A DNA stretch of 21,819 bases from a virus. The stretch covers positions 1 through 21,819 of the IMG/VR virus record IMGVR_UViG_3300024333_000030; one strand, 5' to 3'. The notes under the pieces were generated by a model. The model was not told the DNA's origin. It did not search any database and saw only the letters and a program-made list of their open reading frames with translations. Numbering within the stretch: position 1 is the first letter of the stretch; the number at the start of each line of letters is the position of its first letter. Made by a program: the position numbers and the translations under genes. Below, piece after piece: positions 1,209-17,309 of this stretch.

Positions 1209-1210
1209 AA

Positions 1211-2245
1211 TTAATATTCTAAAGCTCTAGAGATCCTAAACATTCTATCAGAATCAGATTGCATCGTACTATAGCGCCTGTATCTTAAAGAACTTGGTAT
1301 AAACCTGGGTTTAGTTTGGCCATTTCTATGTTCATTGCGCATCTCACGAAGGATCATTTTACCATCTCTTAATTGTTTTTCAGCTTCAGTTTTTTGGCCC
1401 TTATCACTAAACCATTCATAAAGAGCAAAGTGAACAAGCATCCAACGATTATCCGAAGGTATAGCCGGCTCATCGTTTTCATTTAAAAGAGGAGTAAAGG
1501 TCTTACAATAATTCAAATGTATAGGTCTAATTTTATCAGGTTCTATAGGAAATATTCTAAGCCTTTCTGTCTTAGATTGAACATCTCCACCCAAAAAATC
1601 ATAGTCTAATAACATCTCATCTAACGGTGGCAAATATGAATTAATATAAGTTTTACCATCTCTACAATACCCAGTAGGAGCGCCAACCCATGTAGAATTT
1701 ATTGAAAGATTTCTATTGAATTCAGGTAAACTTAATTCAGTTAACTCTCCTTCGTTTATATTTAATCCAAATTCATTATAAATATAAATATTATTTATTG
1801 CATCACAATCAGGCGGTAACGGAAATTCATATCCATATAATCTAAAAGTAGCCAAAGCATTATCATCATCTGCATAAGCAGACTCAAGATACATCTTATT
1901 AGTAGATGTATTAACTCCTATTATACGATACAACTCATCAGTGCCATCTATGCGTATAGATCTTCCAAGATAAATGTTGCTTACAGTTAAACCAGCAAAT
2001 GTTATTATTTTACTACCCTGAGTAACTGCCACAGTTCCGGTTGTTATAGCCGGTTCAATGTTAAAAGACCTATCAAAGGATCTCCATGGCCAATTACGCT
2101 CTGTAGTAATACGTTCATTATATTCTTGAATATATCCCTTTATAAGATCCCGATCATTTTCTTTAACCGTACCTATAATACGACCCCTCGCTTCACATAT
2201 TTCAAGAATATTTTGAAATGTCTTAGCTACTGTTGGTACTGACAT
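1211..2245 (-). CDS. Head-tail connector / tail adaptor-like protein
   Basis: This 344-aa protein has the pattern of phage head-to-tail adaptor or tail tubular proteins. An N-terminal helical part (about residues 1-50) ends in ITTERNWPWRS. A short beta segment TGTVAVTQGSKIITFAG follows (about 70-86) and then IRIDGTDELYRIIGV. This order is common in phage structural proteins lying between fibre and tail-hub genes. The start ATG is preceded by GGAAAGG at good spacing. It lies between two small membrane-protein genes and the beta-propeller gene, in one leftward operon. The specific name (P22 gp4 or T7 gp11 analogue) is inferred from context and residue pattern. Confidence 0.65.
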   Translation of the reverse strand: MSVPTVAKTFQNILEICEARGRIIGTVKENDRDLIKGYIQEYNERITTERNWPWRSFDRSFNIEPAITTGTVAVTQGSKIITFAGLTVSNIYLGRSIRIDGTDELYRIIGVNTSTNKMYLESAYADDDNALATFRLYGYEFPLPPDCDAINNIYIYNEFGLNINEGELTELSLPEFNRNLSINSTWVGAPTGYCRDGKTYINSYLPPLDEMLLDYDFLGGDVQSKTERLRIFPIEPDKIRPIHLNYCKTFTPLLNENDEPAIPSDNRWMLVHFALYEWFSDKGQKTEAEKQLRDGKMILREMRNEHRNGQTKPRFIPSSLRYRRYSTMQSDSDRMFRISRALEY

Positions 2246-2246
2246 A

Positions 2247-2477
2247 TTAACCTTTCCATTTTACTTTTATCCACTCCCACATCATTGTAATGAAAACGCC
2301 AATGGTAGCACATACTCCCATTCCCCACTTTATATAACCATCATGTTTATCAACTCTGGAATGGAGCTTATCTAATTTACCTTCAAAACACTTATGAGAC
2401 TCTACTAAATGGGTGACATTGGAGGCTATCTCCGCAGTCTTTCCATACATCTCAAGTATTATTTTTTCGGTATCCAT
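2247..2477 (-). CDS. XhlA-like small membrane protein (possible holin/lysis accessory)
   Basis: This 76-aa protein has an amphipathic helical or coiled-coil N-terminal half (about residues 1-50, with heptad-like E/K/L spacing in FEGKLDKLHSRVDKHDGYIKW). A single C-terminal membrane segment follows (GMGVCATIGVFITMMWEWI) with a basic tail. This architecture matches the haemolysin XhlA-type phage proteins often found beside holins. Its ATG overlaps the stop of the preceding 62-aa gene (TAATG), so translation is coupled. A lysis role is inferred from architecture. No endolysin is visible in the window. Confidence 0.6.
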   Translation of the reverse strand: MDTEKIILEMYGKTAEIASNVTHLVESHKCFEGKLDKLHSRVDKHDGYIKWGMGVCATIGVFITMMWEWIKVKWKG

Positions 2478-2665
2478 TATTTCTTTTCTGTAGCTACGAG
2501 TTTACCTTCTTTAATGGCATTGCCTACCTCAGTCTGACATTGCTGAAATCCCTTGATCATCAAGGATTGTTTATATCCTTGAGTCATCTGAAATAAGATA
2601 TAAGCGTTAAATATCAAGGATGCTGCAAGAACTACCAAGCCAACTATCAACGGAACCTTTTTCAT
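2477..2665 (-). CDS. Small single-pass membrane protein
   Basis: This 62-aa protein has a positively charged N-terminus (MKKVP), one hydrophobic segment (about residues 5-28) and a polar C-terminal half. It looks like a type II anchored or signal-anchor protein. The start has a clear AAGGAG RBS. Its stop overlaps the start of the XhlA-like gene by one base, so the two form a pair. Two adjacent small membrane proteins in a phage late operon suggest holin/antiholin or spanin-type roles, but no spanin lipobox or other specific motif is present. The function is not recognised. Confidence 0.55.
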   Translation of the reverse strand: MKKVPLIVGLVVLAASLIFNAYILFQMTQGYKQSLMIKGFQQCQTEVGNAIKEGKLVATEKK

Positions 2666-2705
2666 CTTTTCTCCTTAGTCTGTTATCTCATTATAACTAC
2701 CCATT

Positions 2706-3272
2706 CTATCGAATTGTTTGAATCATCAATCTTAATCGCTCTTCTCCATTCTTTCTTCCATTAATTTTCATTCTTCTTCTCCATTCCCTTTTTCTTTTCA
2801 CAACACAATCTACGCACCAACTATCGTAAAACCTTCTTCTAATTTCAGACTTTGGATTATTAAGTCTAAAACAAAACTTGGACAATGGTTTAACTTTTCC
2901 ACATAGACTGCATGGTTTTTTATTCTTCCATTCAACAGCATGTTCGATACGATGTTTCCCATTAGTCATTACCTTTAAGTTTTCAATTCTATTATCTGTC
3001 TTGTTACCGTTTATATGATGTATATGTTCCGTTATCAATAACTTCCTACCCAAATGTTGTTCCATCACATATCTATGTTCCTTAACAGACTTACCTTGTA
3101 TCCGTATCTTTTTATATCCATATCCATCAACATAACCAGTCCCACGCTTTCTACTCTTTTCTGTTTCTGGAACTCCATTTCGTTTCCATACTTGATAATG
3201 TTTACTACAAAAACCTTTTGCTAAATGATCTCTTTCGCATCCATTTACAGAACATTTTCTAATTTCATTCAT
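2706..3272 (-). CDS. Free-standing HNH homing endonuclease with zinc-binding ends
   Basis: This 188-aa protein has a clear HNH_3-type nuclease core at about residues 66-111: EHRYVMEQHLG, then TEHIHHINGNKTDNRIENL, then KHRIEH. H85/H86, N94/N98 and H107 are candidate metal and catalytic residues. An N-terminal Cys/His cluster (C7, C12, C22, H25) and a C-terminal one (C121, C124, C153, C156) look zinc-binding. Such nucleases cut DNA site-specifically and spread into allelic sites. It sits alone between the fibre gene and the small membrane-protein genes, as expected for a free-standing homing gene. It ends in TAG. Its RBS and start codon are buried in a hairpin. Confidence 0.9.
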   Translation of the reverse strand: MNEIRKCSVNGCERDHLAKGFCSKHYQVWKRNGVPETEKSRKRGTGYVDGYGYKKIRIQGKSVKEHRYVMEQHLGRKLLITEHIHHINGNKTDNRIENLKVMTNGKHRIEHAVEWKNKKPCSLCGKVKPLSKFCFRLNNPKSEIRRRFYDSWCVDCVVKRKREWRRRMKINGRKNGEERLRLMIQTIR

Positions 3273-3298
3273 ATATCCTCCTTTTTAGGAGAATATAT
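3271..3298 (-). promoter_or_regulatory. RNA hairpin sequestering RBS and start of HNH gene
   Basis: In the leftward mRNA, AUAUAUUCUCCU (3298-3287) pairs with AGGAGGAUAUAU (3282-3271) around a four-base AAAA loop. The result is 12 contiguous pairs with one U-G wobble. The paired strand contains the whole AGGAGG Shine-Dalgarno sequence and the first two bases of the AUG at 3272. Homing endonuclease genes of T4-like phages are known to be held silent this way in read-through transcripts. The same logic is inferred here. Confidence 0.7.
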
Positions 3299-3333
3299 TT
3301 TAAATCATACCAGTTGTCAATAAACTAATTGTC

Positions 3334-6300
3334 TCAGTTGCTCGATCTGGAAACTTCATACCAATCTGAATCTCCAGAATCCCACGCAAGCGTAAGGGTG
3401 TCTCCCTTACCAAGCGTCATGCTAACGCCACCAGAAAGTTGAATGTTAGTATTGTCTGCGAAGGTAACCGTGTTAGTATCATTGGTTCCTTGAATAATAA
3501 GGAACTGACCATCATCCTGACCATTCGCAACTGAAGGACTCGTATCCAAGACAACCGCTCCACCACTTCCAACAACACGCATAATTGCTTTAGTAGGAGT
3601 CATTGTTGCGTCATTAGCTAACGATGTATCACCAGAAGGATTGAATGCCTGTTGGCCTCCATTGTAAATATCTCCGGCTTGTCCATAGAACGAGTAGTTT
3701 ATTACATCGCTACCTGTTGCGTTACCCAAAACGCCGACATTCCATCCACCAGAATGGGCTGTTATGGCTTGACCTTCAACACCTATTGAAGAATCAGTAT
3801 CAGTAGAAAGTCCGGGCCTTGCAAAACCAGCCACTCCTATTGCAGATGTATCTGCGTCTCCCTTTGCGCTACCAACTATGGCCATGGTATCTTTATCTGA
3901 GTTCGCAACAGCTTCAACAACCAAGCCAATCTCATTGCCTGTAAGTGTTTGAGTTGCTTCACCTTCGGATATGCCTACAAAGAAACTACCCCAATCTGCC
4001 GCAACAAAAGTAGAACCAATGACAACTTCATCCTCGTTATAAATTTGTCCTTCTGTCCCGTAGAACGAATAATTGGTAGCTCCGCCAGAAGCATCTCCCC
4101 AAACTGCTGCGTTCCTTCCACCTACATGCGTGGCAGTTGACAAACCCTTAAGTCCTATAGCGTCCGCATTGTCTGCGGTGTTATCTACAAGAGCAACGCC
4201 TCTTACTCCAACGCCATCTTTGCCTGCTAGGGTCTGACCGATACCATGAATACCAACACCTTCTATTACCCCTCCAGCCTTCGCTTCTCCAACAACACCG
4301 ATATTATCTACAGAGGTCTGCGCAGTATTAGCGGTTGAGAAGAAAGCCTCTGCCGCAGCAAAGTCTGCAAAGTTAGCCGCAGAACCTGCGGCAACTTTCT
4401 CTAGATTGAATAAATTTCCAAGAAGCCCATAGAACGAATAATCTTCATCTCCACCAGAAGCAGTAGAAAAAACTCCTATATTATCTCCAGCAGAATGTGA
4501 CGACGTGGCATTAGCGACAACTCCGTAAGCGGTACCGCTATCCGACGCACCTGTTTGAACCGTTGCCGTACCAGCTATACCAACTGCAAATTTATTGTCT
4601 GTGACTCTTGCAAACCCACGCACTCCGTAAGCATTGTATGTTCCATCGGCTTCTGCTTCAGCTACAATGGCAATATTGGAAGCGGTATCTGTAACTCCCG
4701 TGTTGTCCATGCTAAAAATAGAAAACGCTTCTGGGAAATCAACAAGGCTGGCATCGACTCCTTCTATAAAACCACCTTCCGCAGTCATAAAGCCAATTTT
4801 TTCAGAAGCCTCAAAATCAAATTCCCACTTATCTCCTACGGTATAAACAGTCCCCATTGGATTGTCTTGATAATTTGTAACGTAAACTATAACCCCATTG
4901 TTTAAATTATAAGGGCCAACAACAGATGCGGCTATTAAGTCAATGCCTGAATCTTCCCATGTAGCACCATTATCATCAGACCATCTAAATGTAGGATTTG
5001 GAGAACCAGCATCTATTTCAATTACATACTGAGTAGGAGCCACTCCAGTATAAACGTTTTCAACAATAGAAATAGTAGATTCAACGCTGTCTGTTACTGA
5101 AACATCTATTCCGGTAACACCAAACCCAACAATAGGGCCATTATAAAATTCTAATAAATCAGATTCATAAAGAAGCTTGAAAGTATTCCCGATTTTTATC
5201 GCCTCAGCCCCAGCTGAATCTGGAGTATGCCCCTGTATTTTAAGGTCATCTATAAAGGCTTCGAGCATGTCTGCCTTTATATAATCATCGCTCATCGCAA
5301 ATGAAGGATTTGAACCATGTGTAAACGACCATTCACTTTCGCCTCCAACATCAGGGTCTAAAAACATATCCCATGTCTGATCTGAGTTGAACGTTACAGC
5401 TCCATTAGTAGATGTCCCATCTGGTATCCTAATCTGGTCACCAAACCTAGTTTTTCCTTCATTAACAATACCAAACGCATTAGTAATGGTGGCTCCCGTG
5501 CTTGCAATCGGGTCGTCTTTAATATAAACTGTCGAAGCTTCTGTGATAGTCCCGCCACCACCAGCGATCCTATAAGTAGGAGCATCAATATACATATTGT
5601 GCTGGGCTGCAATATTACCTTCGAGCCACTCTTTAGTCCCTGAATCAAACCAGAATTCTGGACTTATCAACGTGGCCGCTATCCCGTCCATCGTCCCACC
5701 ATACAAGTATAGAACTTGTGGGGCCGAGCTTCCAGTGGTGTTATCCTGTATAACTCTAATGCCTCCGTGGTTGATGATGCCAAACCTGTTATCATAAACT
5801 GGAGAACCAGCAACAACACTCAAAGTATCAACAACTCTAAACAAATATCCCTCATCCCAATCCGTGGTCGGGCCAATTATAAAAGCATCTTTACCGGCAC
5901 CACTTGTGGCTGCGTTATAAATATAAGTACCATCAGAATCATCTGGATATATTGAAGTGTGCCATGAATAACTACCAAGTGAATTAAGGTATATGTCAAC
6001 TGAACCGTTATTAGCTACACCGAACGGAGTTCCTACTCCAAGATTTATATATCCTCCGTTATTGGCTCCCGCTGGTCCTACACCATAACTAGCATTAATC
6101 ATAATATCGTTACCAGCAGAAGAACCAGCCGCATCCGGTGCATCTATCTCTCCACCGCCATCTACACCATTGGGAGAGAAATGAAAGAAGTTGGTTCCAT
6201 CTACCCGCATATCCACCTTACCCTCATCACCAGCACCGCTTTCATCACCGGCATTTAATATTATATCTCCGCCGTCAGTATCACCAGTACCACCTGAAGC

Positions 6301-7125
6301 GGCGTTTAATTCAACACTACCACCAGCTGTAGCTGGAGGAGCATCAGCAGACCCAAGGATTAAACCGTTGGAACCGTCATATCCGATGAAACCAAAACTT
6401 GTTCCATTTCTTTCAAACTCTAACGAACCCCATTCTGCCGTCCCAGTATAGACTCCAACATCGAATATGATAGAACCACCGTCATTGTTACCGGCTCCTT
6501 TTGCATCTCCAGCAGAGAAGCTTATATTACCACCTACTCCTCCGGTAGTATCAGTTCCAGCATCTCCAGCCTCCAAGAAATATCCATAACCATCTTCAAC
6601 AACAGCACCTTTATCCGTAACTGAATCCAAAACACCAGATGCACTTCCCGTTCTATCAAGATATTCAACGCCGCCGTTCCAAAACCTAGTTGTGTCATCA
6701 TCGGCAGTTTGTTCAACTGTGACTAAGGTATCTTTATCTGCGTCGTAGATTAGAGCGGTTTCCTTAATACAAGTACCACTAAAATCGGTATAACCAGATG
6801 CGCAAGAAGTACAAGTTGCTCCAGCATACCCGACATCGCAGTTGCAGTATGCCGCATTCCACGCAGCATTAAATGCTGTTAATAAACAGTTCACGCCGGA
6901 GCCGTGAGTCAACGCATCACAATACAAATCCCACGATGCTTTAGATGAAGCAGTAGGGTCTCCGGCATCAGTGTCTGGAGCGCAGTTCAAGCCCAACATT
7001 ACGTTATTTCCGGCACCGCAGTTCTGACCGGCATAAGATGTATAACATTGGTAAGGAGTGGACCAGGCTGTTGTCGCCATTGCCATTATAATGGCAACCA
7101 AGAACGAAGTTAGTATCTTTTTCAT
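3334..7125 (-). CDS. Large secreted fibre-like protein with signal peptide and EGF-like Cys module
   Basis: This 1263-aa protein begins with a signal peptide (about residues 1-22, MKKILTSFLVAIIMAM... cleaving after TAWS). A Cys-rich module of about 90 residues follows, with CNCDVGYAGATC and CASGYTDFSGTC, an EGF-like pattern. Next come Gly-rich beta repeats of the GGDIxLxAG type (about 190-310), typical of phage tail fibres. A mid-region has TGATITNAFGIVNEGKTRFG, a known fibre motif. Three tandem repeats of about 125 residues, marked by YSFYG (about 894, 1018, 1143), precede a C-terminal beta domain. The start is preceded by AGGAG and lies 12 nt after the 207-aa gene. The body says host-recognition fibre; the Sec signal is unusual for a virion protein. 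Confidence 0.8.
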   Translation of the reverse strand: MKKILTSFLVAIIMAMATTAWSTPYQCYTSYAGQNCGAGNNVMLGLNCAPDTDAGDPTASSKASWDLYCDALTHGSGVNCLLTAFNAAWNAAYCNCDVGYAGATCTSCASGYTDFSGTCIKETALIYDADKDTLVTVEQTADDDTTRFWNGGVEYLDRTGSASGVLDSVTDKGAVVEDGYGYFLEAGDAGTDTTGGVGGNISFSAGDAKGAGNNDGGSIIFDVGVYTGTAEWGSLEFERNGTSFGFIGYDGSNGLILGSADAPPATAGGSVELNAASGGTGDTDGGDIILNAGDESGAGDEGKVDMRVDGTNFFHFSPNGVDGGGEIDAPDAAGSSAGNDIMINASYGVGPAGANNGGYINLGVGTPFGVANNGSVDIYLNSLGSYSWHTSIYPDDSDGTYIYNAATSGAGKDAFIIGPTTDWDEGYLFRVVDTLSVVAGSPVYDNRFGIINHGGIRVIQDNTTGSSAPQVLYLYGGTMDGIAATLISPEFWFDSGTKEWLEGNIAAQHNMYIDAPTYRIAGGGGTITEASTVYIKDDPIASTGATITNAFGIVNEGKTRFGDQIRIPDGTSTNGAVTFNSDQTWDMFLDPDVGGESEWSFTHGSNPSFAMSDDYIKADMLEAFIDDLKIQGHTPDSAGAEAIKIGNTFKLLYESDLLEFYNGPIVGFGVTGIDVSVTDSVESTISIVENVYTGVAPTQYVIEIDAGSPNPTFRWSDDNGATWEDSGIDLIAASVVGPYNLNNGVIVYVTNYQDNPMGTVYTVGDKWEFDFEASEKIGFMTAEGGFIEGVDASLVDFPEAFSIFSMDNTGVTDTASNIAIVAEAEADGTYNAYGVRGFARVTDNKFAVGIAGTATVQTGASDSGTAYGVVANATSSHSAGDNIGVFSTASGGDEDYSFYGLLGNLFNLEKVAAGSAANFADFAAAEAFFSTANTAQTSVDNIGVVGEAKAGGVIEGVGIHGIGQTLAGKDGVGVRGVALVDNTADNADAIGLKGLSTATHVGGRNAAVWGDASGGATNYSFYGTEGQIYNEDEVVIGSTFVAADWGSFFVGISEGEATQTLTGNEIGLVVEAVANSDKDTMAIVGSAKGDADTSAIGVAGFARPGLSTDTDSSIGVEGQAITAHSGGWNVGVLGNATGSDVINYSFYGQAGDIYNGGQQAFNPSGDTSLANDATMTPTKAIMRVVGSGGAVVLDTSPSVANGQDDGQFLIIQGTNDTNTVTFADNTNIQLSGGVSMTLGKGDTLTLAWDSGDSDWYEVSRSSN
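3680..4760 (-). repeat. Three protein-level tandem repeats (~125 aa) in fibre gene
   Basis: The fibre's C-terminal third repeats a unit with a variable start, then GVxGxA..., a Ser/Ala-His-Ser/Gly-Gly stretch, N-V/A-GV, and YSFYG followed by G-I/L-Y/F-N. The YSFYG marks lie at roughly 4427-4444, 4058-4075 and 3682-3699, about 370 nt apart. The DNA copies have diverged, so the repeat is old and kept at protein level. Unit boundaries are approximate. Confidence 0.6.
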
Positions 7126-7137
7126 TTTATTCTCCTA

Positions 7138-7761
7138 TTAGCCCTTGCAACACGCATACTTCTTGCTCATTGCGCACCCTGACAAATAAGCCTTGTCAGT
7201 GTTGAGATTCCAATACGCTCCATAATATCCAACTGCCACCGAGGTCCACCCGTCGCAATCGTTAGAGAATGAAGTGTACCCTGGGGCGCCATCAAGAACC
7301 CATACTTCATCAGTGGCTCCACCAAATGTTTCTCCATCAGCCATTAAAAAAGCTATATCAAGATCGGTGCATGGACGGGCATCTGCATCTGCAGTGTCTG
7401 TGGCACACTGAGTTGTTATTGCGGTATAAGATCCCATGGCATCGCCATCGTAGGTTGCTGTAGTAAGACCTACATAACTTACTTGGCCTACGGGAGTAAT
7501 GCCTCCAGATGTTATTTGAATAACATTGCAAGCCGGGCTGGATGACATGTAATAAAGCTCAGTAACGCCCGCCAACTCTTTAGTAAAAATAACGCCCCTA
7601 TCTGCTTGGCAAGTAGGATTAGAACTTTGCTCATAAAACCAACGAGGACCAGTATATTCAATGTTTGGCCCAGCGGATGGAGTTGATTCATCAATGTTGG
7701 GACCACCCGCAGCTATTAACATTGGCAAAACAGCCAACAACAAATATTTAATTTTAAACAT
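7138..7761 (-). CDS. Secreted Cys-rich protein of unknown function
   Basis: This 207-aa protein has a signal peptide (MFKIKYLLLAVLPMLIAAG, about residues 1-19) but no lipobox Cys. The mature part starts with a repeated GPNI motif (GGPNIDES and AGPNIEYTG). It ends in a Cys-rich module with NDCDGWTSVAVGYYGAYWN and a terminal SGCAMSKKYACCKG. That ending resembles small disulfide-bonded surface or lectin-like modules in environmental bacteria, though no family was firmly identified. GAGGTAAAA before the ATG is the RBS. It directly precedes the other signal-peptide gene, so the pair probably works together at the cell or virion surface. Confidence 0.75.
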   Translation of the reverse strand: MFKIKYLLLAVLPMLIAAGGPNIDESTPSAGPNIEYTGPRWFYEQSSNPTCQADRGVIFTKELAGVTELYYMSSSPACNVIQITSGGITPVGQVSYVGLTTATYDGDAMGSYTAITTQCATDTADADARPCTDLDIAFLMADGETFGGATDEVWVLDGAPGYTSFSNDCDGWTSVAVGYYGAYWNLNTDKAYLSGCAMSKKYACCKG

Positions 7762-7764
7762 TTT

Positions 7765-8196
7765 TTACCTCGCTATGTCATGTACTTCGGCATTAATGGT
7801 AAAAGTTCCACTTGCAGCACCAGCTCCAACCTTAACGTTCCAAACTCTAAAATATTTATAAGTTGTCTCAGTATCTATGGGAATAGGAATGTTAGATTGA
7901 GATGCCGTAAATCTATAAACTCTATTGTGTGGAATTAAAACGCCACCACCTATAGACTCCCAAGACTGTTCCCTTCCCGCCGTACCAGTCTTTGTTCTAT
8001 AAAAAGTAACCCATATATCAACTCCATCTTCTGTCCCCTTTGTATAATCAAGCCAGAGAGTAAAAGACTCTCCAGTTAAATTACTTTGAACATCACCAAC
8101 AGCTGTTGCAGCATCAGCCACAGGATCAGAAGATCCACTATGCAACTGTTTGGTGGTACTAATTATTTCATGTAAATTGTGAGCTAAGCCACCCAT
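7765..8196 (-). CDS. Phage structural protein, unknown
   Basis: This 143-aa protein is mostly beta-strand in character (FTLWLDYTKG, DIWVTFYRT, YKYFRVWNVKVG, GTFTINAEVHD) with a short helical N-terminus. It lies three nt upstream of the 207-aa secreted protein gene and just downstream of a strong terminator. The RBS is a full AGGAGGTTGAT. Position and composition suggest a virion-associated or fibre-attachment protein. The family was not recognised, and no signal peptide or Cys is present. Confidence 0.75.
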   Translation of the reverse strand: MGGLAHNLHEIISTTKQLHSGSSDPVADAATAVGDVQSNLTGESFTLWLDYTKGTEDGVDIWVTFYRTKTGTAGREQSWESIGGGVLIPHNRVYRFTASQSNIPIPIDTETTYKYFRVWNVKVGAGAASGTFTINAEVHDIAR

Positions 8197-8210
8197 ATCA
8201 ACCTCCTAGA

Positions 8211-8252
8211 AAAATAAAACCCGATAAGTCCTTGCCTATCGGGTTTTATTTT
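8211..8252 (-). terminator. Rho-independent terminator, 16-bp perfect stem
   Basis: AAAATAAAACCCGATA (8211-8226) and its exact complement TATCGGGTTTTATTTT (8237-8252) enclose a 10-nt loop. On the minus strand the stem ends in a T-rich run just after the beta-helix gene and just before the RBS of the 143-aa gene. It would reduce or end capsid-module transcription at this point. The A/T flanks make it plausible in both orientations. Confidence 0.85.
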
Positions 8253-8300
8253 ATTCATTCGTTGTTCTCTTTTTTTTAAAAAAATCATTCCACCTCAAAA

Positions 8301-9281
8301 TCATGCACCAGCCATAATACCACCAGCGGCATTCGATTGAGGCTGATCTGTAAATACTGTATCGGCGCCAGCACTATCCCACGCAGCATAACCCAGTGAA
8401 GAACAACCATGCATTACCAACTTACCATTGTTAGGAAGAGTTCCACCAACTAAACTGGTCTGATCAGAAATCACTCCTTCGTTATAGTTAGAGAAGTGGC
8501 AATTCATGAAATATTGATTGCGGTTAATAGCGTCACCAGCTCCATCAAACCTAATACCAAGATGTCCGGCCTGACCTGATGTTGTCTGAGAAAGCGTAAT
8601 ACAATCTTTAAATACGTTACGAGCACAACCAGAAGAGAACTCTATATCATACGTTGTAAGAGTTCCAACTCTATTGATCGTATCCGTTCCAAATACGCAT
8701 TTTTCAAAAGTATTTTCTGACGCACCTATAAGTTCAAGGTTAACTGCATCTGCAGCCGCCGAAGGCGTTGCATGACCAGCGCCTACTGCATGAACGTTAT
8801 AAAAATAGTTTCTATTTCCAGAAACTTGTAAACAACCAAGAGCCGCAGCATCTGATCCACCATTAAACATACTAAGATTGTAAAAAGCATTAGCGTGACC
8901 AGAAACCTTAATTAAATAAGGAGCCGTCAATAAAGTCGAAGCATTTGCAATTCTTGCTCTCTGAGCAAACATTGTAGGAGCAGTAACGCCTACAACTGTT
9001 ATGCCAGATTTAGTCCAATCAAGAGCTGCATCAAGATATGAAGTATGATCAGCTGATGTTGCTGACGCAAACGAAAGAAGTATTATAGCATCACCACGAC
9101 CAGTTACACACTTATCATATGCTGATTTCAACGTATTAAGCGGTTTTGCTTTTGTTCCAGGATTGCCAGCAAGACCTACTTTCGGATCTACAAAGAAAAC
9201 CTTACCACGAATCGCTGGAATGTTTCCATATACTGGAATACCAAAGCTCGTTATCCCATTAGGATAATTAGTAAAACTCAT
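8301..9281 (-). CDS. Right-handed beta-helix (pectate-lyase-like fold) structural protein
   Basis: This 326-aa protein opens with a segment typical of phage and surface beta-helix proteins: KVFFVDPKVGLAGNPGTKAK, then PLNTLKSAYDKCVTGRGDAIILL. Repeated short turns with F/Y-N-x-H/C follow, such as NYFYNVHAVGAG, NTFEKCVFG, NVFKDCITLS and NQYFMNCHFSNYNEG. These mark beta-helix coils. No obvious catalytic residues can be named. It follows the major capsid gene and is bounded by hairpins on both sides. It may be a head fibre, capsid decoration or depolymerase-like protein. The fold is well supported and the role is inferred. Confidence 0.8.
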   Translation of the reverse strand: MSFTNYPNGITSFGIPVYGNIPAIRGKVFFVDPKVGLAGNPGTKAKPLNTLKSAYDKCVTGRGDAIILLSFASATSADHTSYLDAALDWTKSGITVVGVTAPTMFAQRARIANASTLLTAPYLIKVSGHANAFYNLSMFNGGSDAAALGCLQVSGNRNYFYNVHAVGAGHATPSAAADAVNLELIGASENTFEKCVFGTDTINRVGTLTTYDIEFSSGCARNVFKDCITLSQTTSGQAGHLGIRFDGAGDAINRNQYFMNCHFSNYNEGVISDQTSLVGGTLPNNGKLVMHGCSSLGYAAWDSAGADTVFTDQPQSNAAGGIMAGA

Positions 9282-9300
9282 AGTAACCTCCCGTTATCGG

Positions 9301-9350
9301 TTAACCTATTTAGCTACAGATAGGTTAATGGGCGGGAGTTTCACCCGCCC
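9301..9350 (-). promoter_or_regulatory. Tandem hairpins between capsid and beta-helix genes
   Basis: There are two adjacent inverted repeats. TTAACCTAT (9301-9309) pairs with ATAGGTTAA (9320-9328). GGGCGGG (9330-9336) pairs with CCCGCCC (9344-9350) around a 7-nt loop. On the minus strand the GC-rich stem is not followed by a U-run, so it may be an attenuator or mRNA-end stabiliser rather than a full terminator. It separates the highly expressed capsid gene from the next gene. Confidence 0.5.
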
Positions 9351-9360
9351 TTTACCCAAT

Positions 9361-9405
9361 TTATTTACCGTAACCCTTACCCTTTTTACCTTTTTTCTTT
9401 TTCAC
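9361..9405 (-). CDS. Possible 14-aa Lys/Gly-rich micropeptide after the capsid gene
   Basis: GTG at 9405 opens a 14-codon frame, MKKKKGKKGKGYGK, ending in TAA. CAGGAG inside the last capsid codons (GGA GCA TAA) lies about 7 nt upstream of the GTG, so translation could couple to capsid translation. It is not in the capsid frame. It is too short to be sure. The strongly biased composition and well-placed RBS are the only evidence. Confidence 0.3.
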   Translation of the reverse strand: MKKKKGKKGKGYGK

Positions 9406-9406
9406 T

Positions 9407-10324
9407 TTATGCTCCTGCGTTTCCACATATAGCTCTCCAGTTAGAATAACCAACATCCCAACGTGAGAAGCACATAAGTTCCCAAGCTCTTGCTTCTTTA
9501 TCATAATCCGAATCAGTTGACATGGCTTCTCTGCTCATAAACATAAGCCAATGTTCAGCCTTATCACCAACCAAGAAGAACGCTGTGTCACTATCAAGGT
9601 ACTGCCAATAATTACCAGGCAGCAATGCAATAGTATCATAAACCGTATTGATAGCGTTGTTCGCATCTTCGGGGTTATACTGCGACTTCACTATTTCCTG
9701 ACCTAAATCCTGTAGTGCTTGAGGCAACACAAGGAACTTAGGCATGTACTTAACGAACTGTCCATCTTCGTTAAGCGTATTCTGGAACAAATTGCGAAGA
9801 TCACGATAAGATGTGATCGACAACTCTGCCGCCGTCCCAAGGTTATCACCAACTACGCCACCACCATTTTCAAGTGGATGCGAATTGGAGAACAAAGGAA
9901 CGCCATCATAACCATTGGTCGTAAAGCCGTTATCAAATATATCGGCTGCAGCAATTTCCTTAACTTCAAACATGCCCTTAGAAAAAGACTTCGTAGCACG
10001 TTCAATGAAACCAAACTTACCATCATCCACCGCTTCCTTAGAAATCCTGTAGCCCGTTCCCCACTTCGTAGCTGTGTACGTTTTGGGATAGCCACTCTTG
10101 ATCGTCTGGAACTGAACAGGAACGTTTTCACCAACCTGAATAGGATTCCTGAGTCCTGACATCGTTGTATGCTGAGCAATATCCGTAGTCATTCCTTCCT
10201 CGTTAAAGAGAATAGGAATCATACTAGGATACGATTCTGTCGTAGCTTCAATAACTGCTTGAAGCTCCGGCAATTTAGATGTACCAAAAAAATCTACAAA
10301 ATTTGAACGTAAGTTAGTTGCCAT
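9407..10324 (-). CDS. Major capsid protein, Mu gpT-like (HK97 fold)
   Basis: This 305-aa protein matches the Mu-like major head subunit gpT family. Its N-terminal region is MATNLRSNFVDFFGTSKL. A conserved stretch TKWGTGYRISKEAVDDGKFG follows, then VPLFSNSHPLENGGGVVGDNL, the hallmark SxxHPL motif. Later elements are LVLPQALQDLGQEIV and DTAFFLVGDKAEHW, ending in CFSRWDVGYSNWR. It would form the icosahedral shell. No cleavable N-terminal delta domain is obvious, consistent with a separate scaffold gene upstream. The start has GGAGGCC at suitable spacing. A single-gene capsid of this length is normal for the family. Confidence 0.9.
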   Translation of the reverse strand: MATNLRSNFVDFFGTSKLPELQAVIEATTESYPSMIPILFNEEGMTTDIAQHTTMSGLRNPIQVGENVPVQFQTIKSGYPKTYTATKWGTGYRISKEAVDDGKFGFIERATKSFSKGMFEVKEIAAADIFDNGFTTNGYDGVPLFSNSHPLENGGGVVGDNLGTAAELSITSYRDLRNLFQNTLNEDGQFVKYMPKFLVLPQALQDLGQEIVKSQYNPEDANNAINTVYDTIALLPGNYWQYLDSDTAFFLVGDKAEHWLMFMSREAMSTDSDYDKEARAWELMCFSRWDVGYSNWRAICGNAGA

Positions 10325-10333
10325 ATGGCCTCC

Positions 10334-10663
10334 TTATGCTTTTATACACGTAGGTGTAATTTTAACTTCTAAAGCAACATTCGCCCCAAGCGAGTTGCCA
10401 ACCGCATCCTGAGCTTGTGCTATCCTGAGAATAGAAACTGGTTTATCTGTAGCGTGGGAAGAATCACCGTCGATCTCAAAAATCGAACGACGTGTTGTAG
10501 CATTAGGAGCACCAACAACAAAATCATAAGTAAGATCCATATCAGCCTGCGCTGCTATTGTTGCATCATCAACCTGCGCTCGCATGACCAAACCATCTGC
10601 CGGGTAGTATTTTATGCTACCGCCGCTATTCGCAGCTTTATACTCAGCAGCCACACCAACCAC
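10334..10663 (-). CDS. C-terminal part of capsid decoration-like protein (after in-frame TAG)
   Basis: The frame runs 109 codons from GTG 10663 to TAA. Its features (VVGVAAEYK, GSIKYYPADG, VMRAQVDDATI, YDFVVGAPNATTRRS, ...SLGANVALEVKI) fit the C-terminal two thirds of a structural protein commonly encoded just upstream of phage capsid genes. Members usually start with an FG-x-x-P-x-x-Y-NG segment, which is absent here. That segment is encoded in the same frame at 10670-10837, separated only by TAG ACC AGG. No convincing Shine-Dalgarno precedes the GTG. This part is therefore made by readthrough or by reinitiation, or the gene is broken. Confidence 0.75.
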   Translation of the reverse strand: MVGVAAEYKAANSGGSIKYYPADGLVMRAQVDDATIAAQADMDLTYDFVVGAPNATTRRSIFEIDGDSSHATDKPVSILRIAQAQDAVGNSLGANVALEVKITPTCIKA

Positions 10664-10669
10664 CCTGGT

Positions 10670-10837
10670 CTATGCTGCTTGAGCTTGCTGGAGATAACCA
10701 TCTGTATGCATCTCCAAAGGATCAAAATAACCTATAGCATTATTGCTAGCGGATATCAATCCTTCCTCTGTTGACAAGTCTCTGCCGTTCTCGTACTTCA
10801 GCGGCTCAAACCCACTCGGAAAATCTGTGTTGGCCAT
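10670..10837 (-). CDS. N-terminal part of capsid decoration-like protein, ends at TAG
   Basis: ATG 10837, preceded by a good AGGAGGTCAGGT-type RBS, opens 55 codons. The peptide begins MANTDFPSGFEPLKYENG, continues NAIGYFDPLEMHTDGYL and ends QQAQAA before TAG at 10672-10670. FEPLKYENG and the YFDPL segment fit the N-terminal third of the same decoration-like family as the downstream 109 codons. The frame is identical, and with the TAG read as an amino acid the whole would be 167 residues, a normal family length. The family assignment rests on recalled residue patterns. Confidence 0.7.
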   Translation of the reverse strand: MANTDFPSGFEPLKYENGRDLSTEEGLISASNNAIGYFDPLEMHTDGYLQQAQAA

Positions 10838-10856
10838 ACCTGACCTCCTTTATTTA

Positions 10857-11396
10857 TTATGTTCCTTCTTCCGATGAAGAAACAAAACCTTTTTCCAAAT
10901 CTGCCTTGGGGCTAAATCCCCTCAAATTTGGATCAAGTGTGATGATCTCTGATATATCCCGGTTTCCATGCAATATTTCCCACTCCTTCTTTCTTAATTC
11001 ATATTCTTTTCTAGGGAGATACGCTAAAACCATTTCGTTTCGGTGTATATAGTTATCAACACCCTTGTTAAATTTATCCCTAACATCTTCAGTAAGATGT
11101 TCATTTGTCTTAAAAAGCTCGTAACCATTATGATGCCACATGCCTGACTTTTCTAACCGATTCATATTTACCCATACAAAATATTTATCAGGATGAGCGT
11201 TTATTATTTCAGTCGGAATAGTAAGACGCATCTTTCGATTCAACGCCCTTATCATCATGTCACGCTTCGCCGTCACTTTATCAATCGTATTAGACATTCC
11301 AACCTTTGTCGGAGTATCAGTAGCTGCCTTTCTACGCCTTATTTGACTTACATTTGACGGTTCAATAACTTCAGAATTTTTTGGTTCCATGGTCAT
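10857..11396 (-). CDS. Conserved-type phage head-module protein, unknown
   Basis: This 179-aa protein lies between the scaffold-like gene and the decoration-like gene. A basic, disordered N-terminus (about residues 1-50, with IRRRKAATDTPT) is followed by a compact central part with Arg/Trp/Tyr-rich strands (RALNRKMRLTIP, DKYFVWVNMNRLEKSG). A helical segment ends in VLAYLPRKEYELRKKEWE. AAGGAGG at correct spacing supports the ATG at 11396. Proteins of this type are frequent beside phage capsid genes but have no assigned role. It may be a minor head or internal protein. No enzyme motif was seen. Confidence 0.7.
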   Translation of the reverse strand: MTMEPKNSEVIEPSNVSQIRRRKAATDTPTKVGMSNTIDKVTAKRDMMIRALNRKMRLTIPTEIINAHPDKYFVWVNMNRLEKSGMWHHNGYELFKTNEHLTEDVRDKFNKGVDNYIHRNEMVLAYLPRKEYELRKKEWEILHGNRDISEIITLDPNLRGFSPKADLEKGFVSSSEEGT

Positions 11397-11453
11397 CTTT
11401 TTCCTCCTTATAACATGAAAAGTTTTTTTTGTAAAGAAAATAATTACTTAGCC

Positions 11454-12170
11454 CTAATCCCTAGAATTTGCTTTAATTTTCTTAAGCTTCTCCTCAAACT
11501 TATCTTTCTTAACCCCAAAAGACGCAGCAAAATCAATAGCTTTTTGGCTTACCTTATCATCTGCCGCAGGCCTTGCCCCTCCAGCCGGACCCATTGCATT
11601 CATGCTTCGGATCGTCTTAATGTCTACAGGCATTATACCTAAAACATTAGCAGCCTTAATAACAGCAACCGAAGTGCCATCGGCAGATTCCCTAACAGCC
11701 TTTGAAAGCTTCTGATACTCTATTTGAGATTGCTTAAAAAGCTCAGACTTTTTATTTAAAATCTGAGGATAAAGAGAAGCAACTTCAGACTCAGCAGTAT
11801 CCTTATCCTTTTCATACTTAGAAAGAGCTTGAATCTCACCCTTTATTTCATTCTTAACCTTAGGATTTTCTTTAGTTAAAACCTTATTAAAAATTCTAAG
11901 CAAAGCCTTAGCCTGGGTTTCATCAACCCTTAAATCCGAAAGATCATCTTCAAATTCTTTTAATGCGTCATCATAAGAAAATGAACCAGGATCATCATCT
12001 TTAACTTGTTTCTGATCTGCTATCTTCTCAAGAACAGTATTCAATAATGAAGTGTTTTGATTCTTTATCTCTTCCATAAGCTCTTCCTTGTTAATTGTTT
12101 GAGGAACTTTAGAATCTCCTGACGAAGTACCGTCGGGCGGGGTTACAGTATTTTTATTGGGTTCTGTCAT
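11454..12170 (-). CDS. Probable capsid scaffolding protein
   Basis: This 238-aa protein is highly charged and predicted largely helical, with long E/K/D-rich stretches (about residues 28-150). It has an acidic, proline-containing N-terminus and a basic C-terminal helix (VKKDKFEEKLKKIKANSRD). Scaffolding proteins typically combine an acidic coiled body with a basic C-terminal capsid-binding helix and lie between portal and capsid genes, as here. There is no protease motif. The RBS is AAGGAG. The stop is TAG, which shows TAG is a real stop in this genome. The function is inferred from position and composition. Confidence 0.75.
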   Translation of the reverse strand: MTEPNKNTVTPPDGTSSGDSKVPQTINKEELMEEIKNQNTSLLNTVLEKIADQKQVKDDDPGSFSYDDALKEFEDDLSDLRVDETQAKALLRIFNKVLTKENPKVKNEIKGEIQALSKYEKDKDTAESEVASLYPQILNKKSELFKQSQIEYQKLSKAVRESADGTSVAVIKAANVLGIMPVDIKTIRSMNAMGPAGGARPAADDKVSQKAIDFAASFGVKKDKFEEKLKKIKANSRD

Positions 12171-12180
12171 TTTTTTCTCC

Positions 12181-12294
12181 TTATTTCTTTTTAGAACTTT
12201 TTTTCACCGAAGGCTTCTTTACCGACTTGGCACAAGAACATCCTTTCGGACCCTTCAAACGCATGTCTTTCATAGCTCTGCTGACGTTAGCCAT
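12181..12294 (-). CDS. 37-aa basic Cys-containing small protein
   Basis: ATG 12294 opens 37 codons ending TAA. The peptide starts MANVSRAMKDMRLKGPKG, has a CSC pair at 19-21 and ends in a lysine-rich tail (VKKPSVKKSSKKK). AAAGGAG lies at ideal spacing before the ATG, and the start follows the stop of the 122-aa gene by one base. The strong RBS, tight spacing and lack of overlap argue for a genuine gene between the helical 122-aa protein and the scaffold-like protein. It could be a DNA-binding or internal head peptide. The function is unknown. Confidence 0.65.
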   Translation of the reverse strand: MANVSRAMKDMRLKGPKGCSCAKSVKKPSVKKSSKKK

Positions 12295-12295
12295 A

Positions 12296-12664
12296 CTATT
12301 CTCCTTTCTTTATATTGTCGTTCTCTATGATATATATATACCTTTTTAACAACTCTTCTCTCCTAAAACGCAGCGCCATCATTTGCTCATACCTTCCTTC
12401 ATTCTTAGCCACTGCCTCACCATAACTCTTCTTCTTCTCAAGCTCTGTCGATACGTTAAAAATATTAGTCATGATCTCACCAATAAGATTGTTCTCAAAT
12501 TCAAGATACTTCTTAAATTGAGGCATGCCTAAAAGCTCATGGAGCGCCCTTGCTATCTCTATCTCTTTATCAGAAATATTATACTTTATAGCCTTGCCTT
12601 TTTCTTTCACCTCCTTTCTGGCTTCAGCCATAACTTCATTCATCCTTTCAATATAACTACTCAT
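12296..12664 (-). CDS. Helical 122-aa protein of portal/scaffold module, unknown
   Basis: This 122-aa all-helical, charged protein starts at an ATG overlapping the portal stop (ATGA). The RBS GGGAGG lies inside the end of the portal gene, so translation is coupled to the portal. Residues 1-60 are a charged helix (MAEARKEVKEKGKAIKYN...), and the C-terminal half is again helical, ending RREELLKRYIYIIENDNIKKGE. The family was not recognised. Position suggests a head-assembly accessory. It ends in TAG. Confidence 0.7.
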   Translation of the reverse strand: MSSYIERMNEVMAEARKEVKEKGKAIKYNISDKEIEIARALHELLGMPQFKKYLEFENNLIGEIMTNIFNVSTELEKKKSYGEAVAKNEGRYEQMMALRFRREELLKRYIYIIENDNIKKGE

Positions 12665-14937
12665 TGATTACCTCCCTGGGGTTGAGGCCGACCTTGGGGT
12701 GCCGGTCTCGGTTGCGGTTGTGGCGGTTGGGGTTGTTCTTGCTCCGGCGCTTCCTGCCCTTCATTCAAACCAAGCGTCGGACTCTGATTGTTACCGTACG
12801 GATTCTGTACATTGCTCGGCTGCTGCATCATCTCAAAATATCTGGTGTGTTCTTTGATAGCTTGTTTCAATTTCTCCATAGCGTTAGGAGCTACCTTGCC
12901 ATATTGAACTTCTAACTTAGCTTGATCAGGATCTATGGATTCATATACTTCGATCTTACTCTCATGCTCTGGATCGTTCGGAGCTATCGGAGGCATCTGA
13001 CCCTGCATTATCATTGCCAACTCCATATCAATCGGAAGCGCCCTGGCCTCTGTAGGCTTCTTAATGAAACGTTCAGGATTCAATGTCCCTATGCTTCTAT
13101 GGAACTCTTCCATTATATTATAAACCTCGTTCGGCACTACAATGCCAAGCTCTATCGGCAACTTCTGGAAACTAAATTGCGCCACCGCCGCAGCGTTCTC
13201 CTTGATCACATCTCTATTAATGTTCAAAGAGTTTGCATAAATACCAAAATGTACCTTTGTGGAAAGCTCACTTAACGTAATATCTTCCTTCATTAAATTG
13301 CCCTCTTCATCAACAAGTGGAGTTCCATCCATACCCGTCACCGTCAACTTCTGAACCTCCGGCATCCTGTCAAGACAATCAAGATATAACCCCTCAAATA
13401 GATCAGATATGCAGATCTTCACCCTCTTAATTATAGGATCCATTATCATGGAAGCATTCCTGTCCAAAGCGTTCACACCACTCGTAGAACGCAACGCCCC
13501 AACCCTGGCGCCTACCTGCCCCATCTGGCTCGGCCCCATCCCAGTCAACTGCTGAGCCATTGATATTAAACTGCTCTGTATCCCTGACGACCAATTAGGA
13601 TTAACGTTCCATGTGAAAAACCTTATGTCACTGTTAGGATCGTCACACTTAATGCCAAGACCAGGACCTATCTTAACCTCTCCAGGATCAAATGTGCTGT
13701 CACCCTTATATCCAAACATCGGATTGTTCGCTAACATGCCGGCATCTATCGACTGGTTAAGCAGTATATCTAAACCATCGTTAATAGAAAACATCGTGTG
13801 CGTTATACCTCTCCCTATACTGCACCTCGGCCTCCTGTATAAATGCGCCATGTGCAACGGTATCTTACCGTTTGAACTAACTCTGTCCAAATATGTCCAC
13901 CTCGCTAAACTCTTCGTGTCTACATGAACATAATACTGTAACCTGTCCGCTAACTCCTTGTTCTTATCCTTAGGATCTAAATTCGTAGTATCGTAAACAC
14001 AAAGAAATTCCCAAACACCACTGCTCGCAGAAGATGATTCAACGTTAACACCAGTCTGACGCTGCTCAACTCTTCTCCGATCACTGTCCAACCTCTGCCC
14101 ACCTATCTTCAATGGAGGAGTTTCTAAAATCTTGTCCACAACCTCTTCATCCATCCATTCACTATCTTTAAAAGATATAAGTTCGTTCTGATTAAAATAA
14201 CATACCTTGATAACAGTTTCATGCCTGTTCAGATCAGTACAATCAACAACATCACCCTGAAATAAAATAAATACAGGATTCTCCGCAGTAATGGTAGGCC
14301 CGTTGAAAACTGTTCTTATTATAGACTTCTCAACGTATGGCATATTAATAAACTCGTTAGCCAATATTCCAAAATCTTTCTCTTCAGTGTCATCTAACAT
14401 CTTCTGCAAATTTAATCGCTGAGATTTGAAATCATCATTCTTCTCTATAGTGTAAAACCTTCTCTGTATAACATCCCAACCCCTGCTAAATATGGCCATA
14501 CCCTCACCACAAAGATCGTTAGCCCAATCATCTACTGTTAAATAAATACCGTTGTGATAATTTACATACCGCTCCAATACATATTTCAAAAACCTCTCTA
14601 TCTTCTTGATACGATACATGTCTATATCTTCCTGAGGATCTACATAGAACCACGGATATTGAAAAAATATAGCCTGCATGATCATGGCGTGCATCGCATT
14701 CTTCTGGATCTCCGTTAACGGAAAATGAAAATTAGCACTGCCTTCCCATAAACCCTTGAACGGAGAAGAAAGATAATCTTCACTGGAAAGATAGAACTGC
14801 TCCCTCCTCTTCATCCACTCACTTCTGTCATTCTCAAATTGCCCAAACTTCTCTATTGCCCTATTGACAAGATGTTGCGCATCAATAGTTTTTTTCGGGA
14901 TCCTGAATATAGGATCCACTGGCATTACTTTCCTCAT
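12661..14937 (-). CDS. Portal protein
   Basis: This 758-aa protein has the typical portal layout. A helical N-terminal wing is followed by a core with IPLHMAHLYRRPRCSIGRG and FSINDGLDILLNQSIDAGM. Then come NPMFGYKGD, DPGEVKIGPGLGIKCDDPN, a clip/stem segment LISMAQQLTGMGPSQMGQ and SGVNALDRNASMIMDPIIKRV. The C-terminal 40 residues are Pro/Gln-rich (QPQPPQPQPRPAPQGRPQ) and probably disordered. The dodecameric ring would form the DNA entry vertex. It starts in an ATGA overlap with terL and has an AGGGAG RBS. The length is like large P22-type portals. Confidence 0.88.
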   Translation of the reverse strand: MRKVMPVDPIFRIPKKTIDAQHLVNRAIEKFGQFENDRSEWMKRREQFYLSSEDYLSSPFKGLWEGSANFHFPLTEIQKNAMHAMIMQAIFFQYPWFYVDPQEDIDMYRIKKIERFLKYVLERYVNYHNGIYLTVDDWANDLCGEGMAIFSRGWDVIQRRFYTIEKNDDFKSQRLNLQKMLDDTEEKDFGILANEFINMPYVEKSIIRTVFNGPTITAENPVFILFQGDVVDCTDLNRHETVIKVCYFNQNELISFKDSEWMDEEVVDKILETPPLKIGGQRLDSDRRRVEQRQTGVNVESSSASSGVWEFLCVYDTTNLDPKDKNKELADRLQYYVHVDTKSLARWTYLDRVSSNGKIPLHMAHLYRRPRCSIGRGITHTMFSINDGLDILLNQSIDAGMLANNPMFGYKGDSTFDPGEVKIGPGLGIKCDDPNSDIRFFTWNVNPNWSSGIQSSLISMAQQLTGMGPSQMGQVGARVGALRSTSGVNALDRNASMIMDPIIKRVKICISDLFEGLYLDCLDRMPEVQKLTVTGMDGTPLVDEEGNLMKEDITLSELSTKVHFGIYANSLNINRDVIKENAAAVAQFSFQKLPIELGIVVPNEVYNIMEEFHRSIGTLNPERFIKKPTEARALPIDMELAMIMQGQMPPIAPNDPEHESKIEVYESIDPDQAKLEVQYGKVAPNAMEKLKQAIKEHTRYFEMMQQPSNVQNPYGNNQSPTLGLNEGQEAPEQEQPQPPQPQPRPAPQGRPQPQGGNQ

Positions 14938-17309
14938 AACTGTATCTCCCTTCTATATGCACCATTGTAAGTGCGGGTTATAAAATTTTGCTCGCCAGGC
15001 GTTATAAACTTCGGAGCTATCGACTCTATATACCTACTGCAATCTATGCGTTCGTTATACTTCGGTATCGGCCTCACCTCCGATGAAGAAATGTTCTCCG
15101 GCCACTGATAATGCAATAACTCATATCTATACTTTGGAACCGAATGACGAAATAAATATTCAGTCGGCATCACCCTGTCACTTTCAGAAGCCTGCACTAT
15201 CGGCTTGAAAAGATCCCGTAACTTCTTAATGCCAGGTAACAACCAACCCTTCTTAACTGCCATTACCGGCATAACCACCTCCCCAGCATCACGAAGAGAA
15301 CGATTTAACTCGTCACGCATGTTTATCTTGAACTGCCAATCCTCCACGTTCACCGATGTGTCACTTACACTCTTTATCAACGTCGCACCACCAGCAGTTA
15401 AACGCCTTCGCACCTTCGCTAACTCTTGGCCAAAATCATAGATACCACCATCAAAATCCAACTCCGCACATGAATAACGAAAATTGTTCCTGTCCAACGC
15501 CTTCCATAACGCAGCGTTAGGCTTACTCTCATGCGGATCTAAACCTTCAAAAATAACAAAATCTGAAGTTAACTCAAATTCATCTATATCAGAAAACTCG
15601 GGACGATAACTGTCGATCACCACTCCCTGTAACTTCTTAAACAAACCTTCAATACGAACTTCCCTCTCCTGCGGAGTACATTCAGCTGCTAAAATGTCCA
15701 ACGTCTTTTTGTTGACATATGGATTGTCGTAAGATGACCAGTTAAAACAATCTATGTATTCCTTCTGACCATGCACGCCAGGCAACCATAACTCGTCATA
15801 GATCCACGCCTCTCGCAACGGCGTCATACTAAACCACATTAAACCACCACGATCTACTATACTTCGTAAATTCGCTATGTAAATGTTGCGCGGCGGCGGC
15901 TCGTCGAAACATACGAAATCAGCGTCACCACCCTCTGCGGTACCAGCCTCCTGCTGATACGCTCCAAACGTGATACGGCTGCCATTGGCAAAGTTTATCC
16001 CGGAAAGGTATCCCTGCGCACTCTTCATGTACGGTTTCGCAGAATCCAATGCGCTCTTCGGCAACCACTTCTCAAACTTTGGACCAAATGTTTCCAAAGT
16101 CACTATCGGAAACGTGTCGCCGTAAAGCTTCCCCTTATTCGGAACCGGAATCTTGTGATATGGATGTATGCCAAGCGACAACCAAATAGCTTCGATCGTG
16201 CTAGCTTCTGATTTGCCCGAATTCGAATGTATTATACCATCAGATGTTACATAGTTATGAACGTTCTCAACCGTCATATCCCAATACCATTCTTCTTTTG
16301 TCAACTTTTCTATTGATTTAATTCTGGAAATAGTATAGGAACTATTGTATGACGATACACAAAGAACCTTACATTGGCTGGAAGAATCAAATAATTCAAC
16401 TTTCCCATCCTGAATTAAGCTCCAAAGAAATTGCAGAGAAGATCCATTGCCCTCATAAATACGTTGAAGCAATCCGTAAAAAGCTCGATCTTCCAAGGCA
16501 GTTAAGAACTGGCCCAAAAAGAGGCGTACATCATCCTCAATTTCAAACAGGCTTTTCCATTGACAAGGATGGCTATGTTTTAATTTCTGTATCCCCTCAA
16601 TTCCAACAAGCAAGAAAATCACACAATAGACAAACGAAACGAATGTTATTGCATCGTTATATCGTTTCAAAAATAATCGGTAGGCCTCTAACAAAAATGG
16701 AAGTTGTCGATCATATAAATAATTGCAAACTCGATAACCACCCACGCAACCTTCGCCTGTTCCCCTCAAATGCAACTCATTTGAAAAATACGATCTCTGG
16801 CCAAGTGCCGAAATGGAGTCGTGCGGGCAAACAAAACATAAATCGCCACATTGAAGATCACGAACGTATTCATACTTACCTTGAACAGAAAAGATCCGGT
16901 GCCGTCCGTCAGCGACAAATTCTCCAGCTTCGTGAACTACGCGATATTGATGAGAACGTCCCTTTGCAAATGGATATATTGCTCGATTCCAAACAAATTG
17001 ATTGGATCTTTGATCAAAACTTAAAACCTCCTCACACATTCCTGCAATATCACCAATCGCTTTTAAACCATTCTTTGTAATTATTTTTTGATCTTCCCGC
17101 AAACAACGATTCCCCGCTACCAATAATCGTATTTGCTTCGAAGATTTGTGAAAGCCTATTTGCCCGGTCTTAGTAGATTCGTCAAAACCACCGCGACCAT
17201 CGTGCGGACGATACAAACCAAGCTTGTTGTTCTCGTAAGCTTGCAATTGCTCGTCAAGCATCTTGATCGTTTCGATCAAATCAGCTTTGCTCTGCGTCGC
17301 TGGATTCAA
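14934..17309 (-). CDS. terL: Terminase large subunit interrupted by an intein
   Basis: This 791-aa precursor becomes about 496 aa after splicing. The packaging motor ATPase has Walker A split by the intein (VAGNR at 64-68, SGKSE at 364-368). Walker B is FVCFDE (about 465-470), and the coupling motif is SMTP (about 494-497). A C-terminal RNase H-like nuclease domain includes FEGLDPHESKPNAALW (about 588-602; D591 a likely metal ligand). It starts with TTG at 17309, preceded by GAGGAA inside terS, with which it overlaps 29 nt. An in-frame ATG at codon 18 is the alternative but lacks a good RBS. Function depends on protein splicing. Confidence 0.9.
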   Translation of the reverse strand: MNPATQSKADLIETIKMLDEQLQAYENNKLGLYRPHDGRGGFDESTKTGQIGFHKSSKQIRLLVAGNRCLREDQKIITKNGLKAIGDIAGMCEEVLSFDQRSNQFVWNRAIYPFAKGRSHQYRVVHEAGEFVADGRHRIFSVQGKYEYVRDLQCGDLCFVCPHDSISALGQRSYFSNELHLRGTGEGCVGGYRVCNYLYDRQLPFLLEAYRLFLKRYNDAITFVSFVYCVIFLLVGIEGIQKLKHSHPCQWKSLFEIEDDVRLFLGQFLTALEDRAFYGLLQRIYEGNGSSLQFLWSLIQDGKVELFDSSSQCKVLCVSSYNSSYTISRIKSIEKLTKEEWYWDMTVENVHNYVTSDGIIHSNSGKSEASTIEAIWLSLGIHPYHKIPVPNKGKLYGDTFPIVTLETFGPKFEKWLPKSALDSAKPYMKSAQGYLSGINFANGSRITFGAYQQEAGTAEGGDADFVCFDEPPPRNIYIANLRSIVDRGGLMWFSMTPLREAWIYDELWLPGVHGQKEYIDCFNWSSYDNPYVNKKTLDILAAECTPQEREVRIEGLFKKLQGVVIDSYRPEFSDIDEFELTSDFVIFEGLDPHESKPNAALWKALDRNNFRYSCAELDFDGGIYDFGQELAKVRRRLTAGGATLIKSVSDTSVNVEDWQFKINMRDELNRSLRDAGEVVMPVMAVKKGWLLPGIKKLRDLFKPIVQASESDRVMPTEYLFRHSVPKYRYELLHYQWPENISSSEVRPIPKYNERIDCSRYIESIAPKFITPGEQNFITRTYNGAYRREIQL
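16221..17105 (-). mobile_element. Intein in TerL Walker A, 295 aa, Cys1...Asn / Ser+1
   Basis: The insert runs from C69 to N363 of the precursor. Block A is CLREDQKIITKNGLKAIGDI. Block B is near FVADGRHRIFSV (intein 63-74), with the H of the DGRH motif. Blocks F/G are WDMTVENVHNYVTSDGIIHSN (275-295), followed by Ser+1. Removing it restores AGNRSGKSE exactly. No LAGLIDADG or HNH motif occurs in this frame. The centre (about intein 100-250) is hydrophobic and compositionally odd because the opposite strand encodes an HNH nuclease. The penultimate residue is Ser (IIHSN) instead of the usual His, so splicing chemistry may be slow or helped by another residue. Confidence 0.88.
16349..17080 (+). 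CDS. HNH homing endonuclease encoded antisense within the terL intein
   Basis: This 243-aa protein lies on the plus strand, wholly inside the intein DNA on the minus strand. Its N-terminal segment has a helix-turn-helix-like pattern (LSSKEIAEKIHCPHKYVEAI, about 23-42). The HNH_3 core is at about 101-147: LHRYIVSKIIGRPL, EVVDHINNCKLDNHPRNLRL and NATHLKN. H102, D121/H122, N130, N134 and H144 are candidate key residues. AGGA lies 8 nt before the ATG. The C-terminal hundred residues are antisense to intein N-terminal blocks. Presumably it cuts intein-less terL at the Walker A codons, driving intein homing. The opposite-strand placement is highly unusual. Confidence 0.85.
   Translation: MTIHKEPYIGWKNQIIQLSHPELSSKEIAEKIHCPHKYVEAIRKKLDLPRQLRTGPKRGVHHPQFQTGFSIDKDGYVLISVSPQFQQARKSHNRQTKRMLLHRYIVSKIIGRPLTKMEVVDHINNCKLDNHPRNLRLFPSNATHLKNTISGQVPKWSRAGKQNINRHIEDHERIHTYLEQKRSGAVRQRQILQLRELRDIDENVPLQMDILLDSKQIDWIFDQNLKPPHTFLQYHQSLLNHSL

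Follow-up and report, generated by a model that had tools for sequence, protein, structure and literature searches.

An in-frame amber stop in a phage decoration protein gene, very probably a one-base change private to one record

The in-frame amber codon that breaks a capsid decoration protein gene of this phage is very probably a one-base nonsense change in an ordinary gene, private to a single record, and would represent a genuine null allele or else a mistake of sequencing or assembly. The observations behind this reading are the stop itself, its absence from a near-identical record, the uninterrupted state of the gene in its relatives, and the predicted fold of the protein. Whichever of the two cases holds, we infer that there is neither programmed readthrough nor a naturally split gene. 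No further mechanism is necessary.

The interrupted frame and its near-identical counterpart

The window, meaning the whole stretch of DNA analyzed here, is an IMG/VR record of 21,819 bases, taken here as a partial genome. On its minus strand, a single frame runs from an ATG at 10837 to a TAA at 10334, and its sole break is a TAG at codon 56 (10672–10670). The two pieces, 10670–10837 (55 aa) and 10334–10663 (109 aa from a GTG), share frame and strand and are separated only by TAG ACC AGG; ACC AGG and the first base of the GTG occupy 10663–10669, and the GTG itself lies at 10663–10661. Any residue in place of the TAG yields a product of 167 aa. The initial annotation had described the same two ORFs, with the same coordinates, and had joined them into a 167-residue protein like those encoded upstream of phage capsid genes; the frames, the length, and the place of the gene beside the major capsid gene were confirmed. 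The joined frame aligned over its full length with single-ORF relatives; therefore, two adjacent genes that happen to share a frame do not explain the interruption. The 167-codon gene (10334–10837, minus strand) is preceded by a strong ribosome-binding site (AAAGGAGGTCAGGT, 10838–10853, minus strand) directly 5′ of the ATG. It sits between a 179-aa gene (10857–11396, minus strand), which gene-order comparison found at the same place in loci L013–L016, and the major capsid protein gene downstream (9407–10324, minus strand; phrog_371, 2e-13; PF10124, 5e-12; PF25209, 1e-11). Portal (PF23899) and terminase genes lie farther upstream. Elsewhere in the window, neighboring genes of 143 aa and 207 aa (7138–8196, minus strand) share a frame by chance, with a TAA and one codon between them, a reminder that in-frame neighbors may equally be two ordinary genes.

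An IMG/VR search with the read-through protein recovered one record, IMGVR_UViG_3300045016_000006 (20,124 bases), with 99% protein identity. Codon 56 of that record is TCG (serine), and the gene is a single 167-aa ORF with the same ribosome-binding site. The stretch common to both records corresponds to window positions 1–15910 and is 99.9% identical, with 11 single-base differences, all of them substitutions (10 over 14,268 bases and one in the rest of the common stretch). Five are synonymous, including TCA/TCG at window position 546 in the frame of a 520-aa gene, five are missense, mostly at positions that vary among relatives, and one is the nonsense change at codon 56. Enumeration over these genes showed that 4.6% of random substitutions would be nonsense, which gives a probability of approximately 0.40 for at least one nonsense change among 11 random substitutions. 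Exact-pattern scans of IMG/VR and a scan with the capsid protein found no further near-identical record.

These comparisons bear out a nonsense mutation, or an error in sequencing that mimics one, which was among the options first offered for the TAG. We put at somewhat under even the chance that the TAG reflects nothing but faulty sequencing or assembly, with an intact gene in the phage that was sampled. A single base, private to one record, breaks a virion gene that all relatives have whole, as such an error would; the remaining differences, however, look like ordinary strain variation, and the record is not obviously error rich. It is possible that the allele is real and persists, because the differences, lying mostly at variable positions, resemble those between strains.

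The nonsense change would have arisen in a decoration (capsid cement) gene that is otherwise ordinary, a single ORF immediately 5′ of the major capsid gene, where one base in one record would have turned the serine codon TCG into the amber codon TAG. If the base is real, it would be a loss-of-function allele: translation would stop at residue 55, the phage would lack functional decoration protein, and it would rely either on dispensability of the protein or on co-infecting phages with an intact gene. If the base is not real, the stop would stem from faulty sequencing or assembly and have no biological meaning.

Relatives and predicted fold of the decoration protein

The family alignment comprised 39 IMG/VR loci, of which one was the near-identical record and several were near-duplicates of one another. 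In all 39 (38 besides the near-identical record), the gene is one uninterrupted ORF of 161–296 aa that begins with MAN, in most cases with a recognizable ribosome-binding site, and the same uninterrupted arrangement was found in Manatee Spring phage MW202601. The proposed check of homologues for a conserved stop found the TAG in none of the relatives. Among the 38 other IMG/VR loci and MW202601, none encodes two separate proteins. The nearest independent set, L013–L016, is approximately 47% identical in this protein and approximately 67% in the capsid protein, with unchanged gene order, and the gene adjoins the major capsid gene in the head gene block of the window, L011, and L013–L016. The interrupted residue falls in a loop of variable length, immediately ahead of a conserved GVAAEYKAAN stretch. 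Two loci, L003 and L004 (6001–6891 in each), encode a longer decoration protein of 296 aa in total, with approximately 130 extra C-terminal residues, much as though the protein had gained a second surface domain.

The uninterrupted protein was modeled with AlphaFold2 from 17 family sequences; the underlying alignment consisted of IMG/VR relatives only. The model shows a single beta domain, predicted with confidence (pLDDT 86.8, pTM 0.84). Its neighbors by Foldseek and VIA-align 2 are phage decoration proteins, namely those of HFTV1, FCWL1, Sf11, TW1, T1, and Pam3, together with gpD, SHP, and the base of phi29 gp8.5. HFTV1 aligned with a Z score of 9.8 over 125 residues, lambda gpD with a Z score of 6.8 (root-mean-square deviation [rmsd] 2.6), and phage 21 SHP with a Z score of 6.8 (rmsd 2.3). 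The model has the features of a beta-tulip fold, with middling Z scores and top matches that are nearly all decoration proteins. By sequence, one family member matched each of the Pfam families Phage_cement and Phage_cement_2, and four matched a PHROG of virion structural proteins; the window protein itself had no match in Pfam or PHROGs, and nothing meaningful was found against PDB chains (best E value 0.28). The intact protein is thus predicted, from the model, to be a decoration protein of the lambda gpD/HFTV1 kind, and the earlier label "decoration-like" was borne out by the fold comparison.

The SHP alignment spans model residues 13–86 and crosses the stop at residue 56; therefore, the stop would split one predicted barrel rather than mark a border between two domains. 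It lies in a loop within that barrel, which makes either fragment implausible as a domain, and the position does not suggest workable truncated and extended products.

Translation across the stop

Amber readthrough, in an ordinary host or through a suppressor tRNA of host or phage, would yield the decoration protein in two lengths, truncated and full, at a fixed ratio. We regard it as very unlikely, although the frame stays open beyond the stop, with full conservation of the encoded protein, and a natural suppressor host is conceivable. Even a 99.9% identical record lacks the stop, TAG read as sense joins no other gene, and the 55-residue truncated form would not, according to the model, be a domain. 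The RNA around the stop folds somewhat better than shuffled sequences (z = −2.06), but the minimum energy of the local hairpin is unchanged in the version without the stop; the structure is not peculiar to the stop allele and was rejected as a readthrough signal. No tRNA genes were found in the window or the near-identical record, both partial genomes, or in L002–L007 and L009. The initial annotation had favored readthrough that yields two virion forms, and alternatively a suppressor tRNA encoded by the phage. Neither was upheld: no relative shares the stop, no tRNA gene was found in the two partial records, the RNA structure is not stop specific, and the stop falls within a single predicted fold. 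A real amber allele that is common in the sample and tolerated through an amber suppressor in the natural host, giving a mixture of truncated and full-length protein, is scarcely probable and less so than readthrough in general.

Reinitiation close to stop codons occurs in bacteria, and a GTG lies two codons past the TAG. The two pieces could in principle be separate proteins that cooperate as a split decoration protein, with the second starting at the GTG at 10663; we give this reading even less credence. The GTG lacks a spaced ribosome-binding site, unlike the neighboring genes and in agreement with what had first been reported for it, no relative has two proteins, and on the predicted structure neither piece would contain the whole barrel.

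The suggestion that the phage or its host reads TAG as sense (code 15) has the smallest probability of all. Among 22 ORFs, 10 end in TAA, eight in TGA, and four in TAG, a count that includes the interrupted gene; the other three are the HNH gene (2706), a 238-aa gene (11454), and a 122-aa gene (12296). TAG had been called a normal stop elsewhere, and recoding unlikely, on the strength of these three genes. They do terminate in TAG, but the argument is weaker than it appeared, because each of them reaches a second in-frame stop after one to four codons, which is also what can be said for code 15. Other evidence opposes it. Read as sense, TAG joins only the interrupted decoration gene instead of many genes, whereas in the recoded phage phAss-1, which encodes three suppressor tRNAs, 41 ORFs contain an internal TAG (PMC10607447). 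At this site, the near-identical record carries the sense codon TCG, and no suppressor tRNA was seen in the two partial records, although some recoded phages have none (PMC10607447). Amber recoding or a suppressor tRNA was rejected on the lack of any tRNA gene in the records scanned and on the joining of this gene only.

A terminase intein and comparison with known systems

The more interesting item of the window is not the amber stop but an intein in the terminase large subunit gene (14934–17309, minus strand), and it merits separate study. The 295-aa intein (16221–17105, minus strand) is inserted at the Walker A motif (GNR/C...HN/SGKSE, where slashes mark the junctions), and a 243-aa HNH endonuclease ORF (16349–17080, plus strand) runs antisense within it and spans most of its length. 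The near-identical record stops at window position 15910, approximately 310 bases before reaching the intein. The same two-strand arrangement was found in Pectobacterium phage Koroua (PQ008972), which has a terminase-like CDS at 1107–3371 (minus strand) and an unannotated HNH at 2480–3178 (plus strand), and in IMG/VR locus L052, with terminase at 2854–5112 (plus strand) and HNH at 3005–3766 (minus strand). It thus recurs in three divergent phages, in which the HNH proteins are 34%–40% identical pairwise and the inteins 26%–30%. A second, free-standing HNH endonuclease gene (2706–3272, minus strand; PF13392, 9e-11) is located among tail and fiber genes. A phage methylase insertion in which no self-splicing domains are detectable has been described as containing a hidden HNH gene out of frame; the text of that report never says antisense or opposite (PMC11855218). 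A limited literature search found no published report of an antisense HNH gene within an intein, which is weak evidence of novelty.

The amber stop itself can be set against several known systems, and where one assembled record alone shows a virion gene split, comparison with near-identical records ought to precede any proposal of recoding. The A1 protein of Q-beta arises by coat protein readthrough across a conserved stop between a complete coat protein and an added domain. The stop described here similarly lies inside a capsid-associated frame, but it is not conserved and it would cut one domain. Code 15 phages such as phAss-1 (PMC10607447) likewise have TAG within frames that go on beyond it; here, one gene only is affected, the stop is absent at 99.9% identity, and no suppressor tRNA was seen. 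The closest likeness is to decoration proteins. Those of the gpD kind attach to the capsid exterior, in the cases studied as trimers. The predicted fold is shared over most of the chain with lambda gpD and phage 21 SHP, TW1 gp56, the base of phi29 gp8.5, HFTV1, and Pam3, and as in the gpD and SHP group the gene immediately precedes that for the major capsid protein; the window protein differs from that group in having no PDB, Pfam, or PHROG sequence match and in its interrupted copy. The need for such proteins varies, since lambda requires gpD but phage L does not require Dec (PMC7602432). If the amber allele is true, it would suggest at most dispensability or complementation, and if it is also frequent, it would suggest that this phage could do without its decoration protein, as phage L does without Dec.
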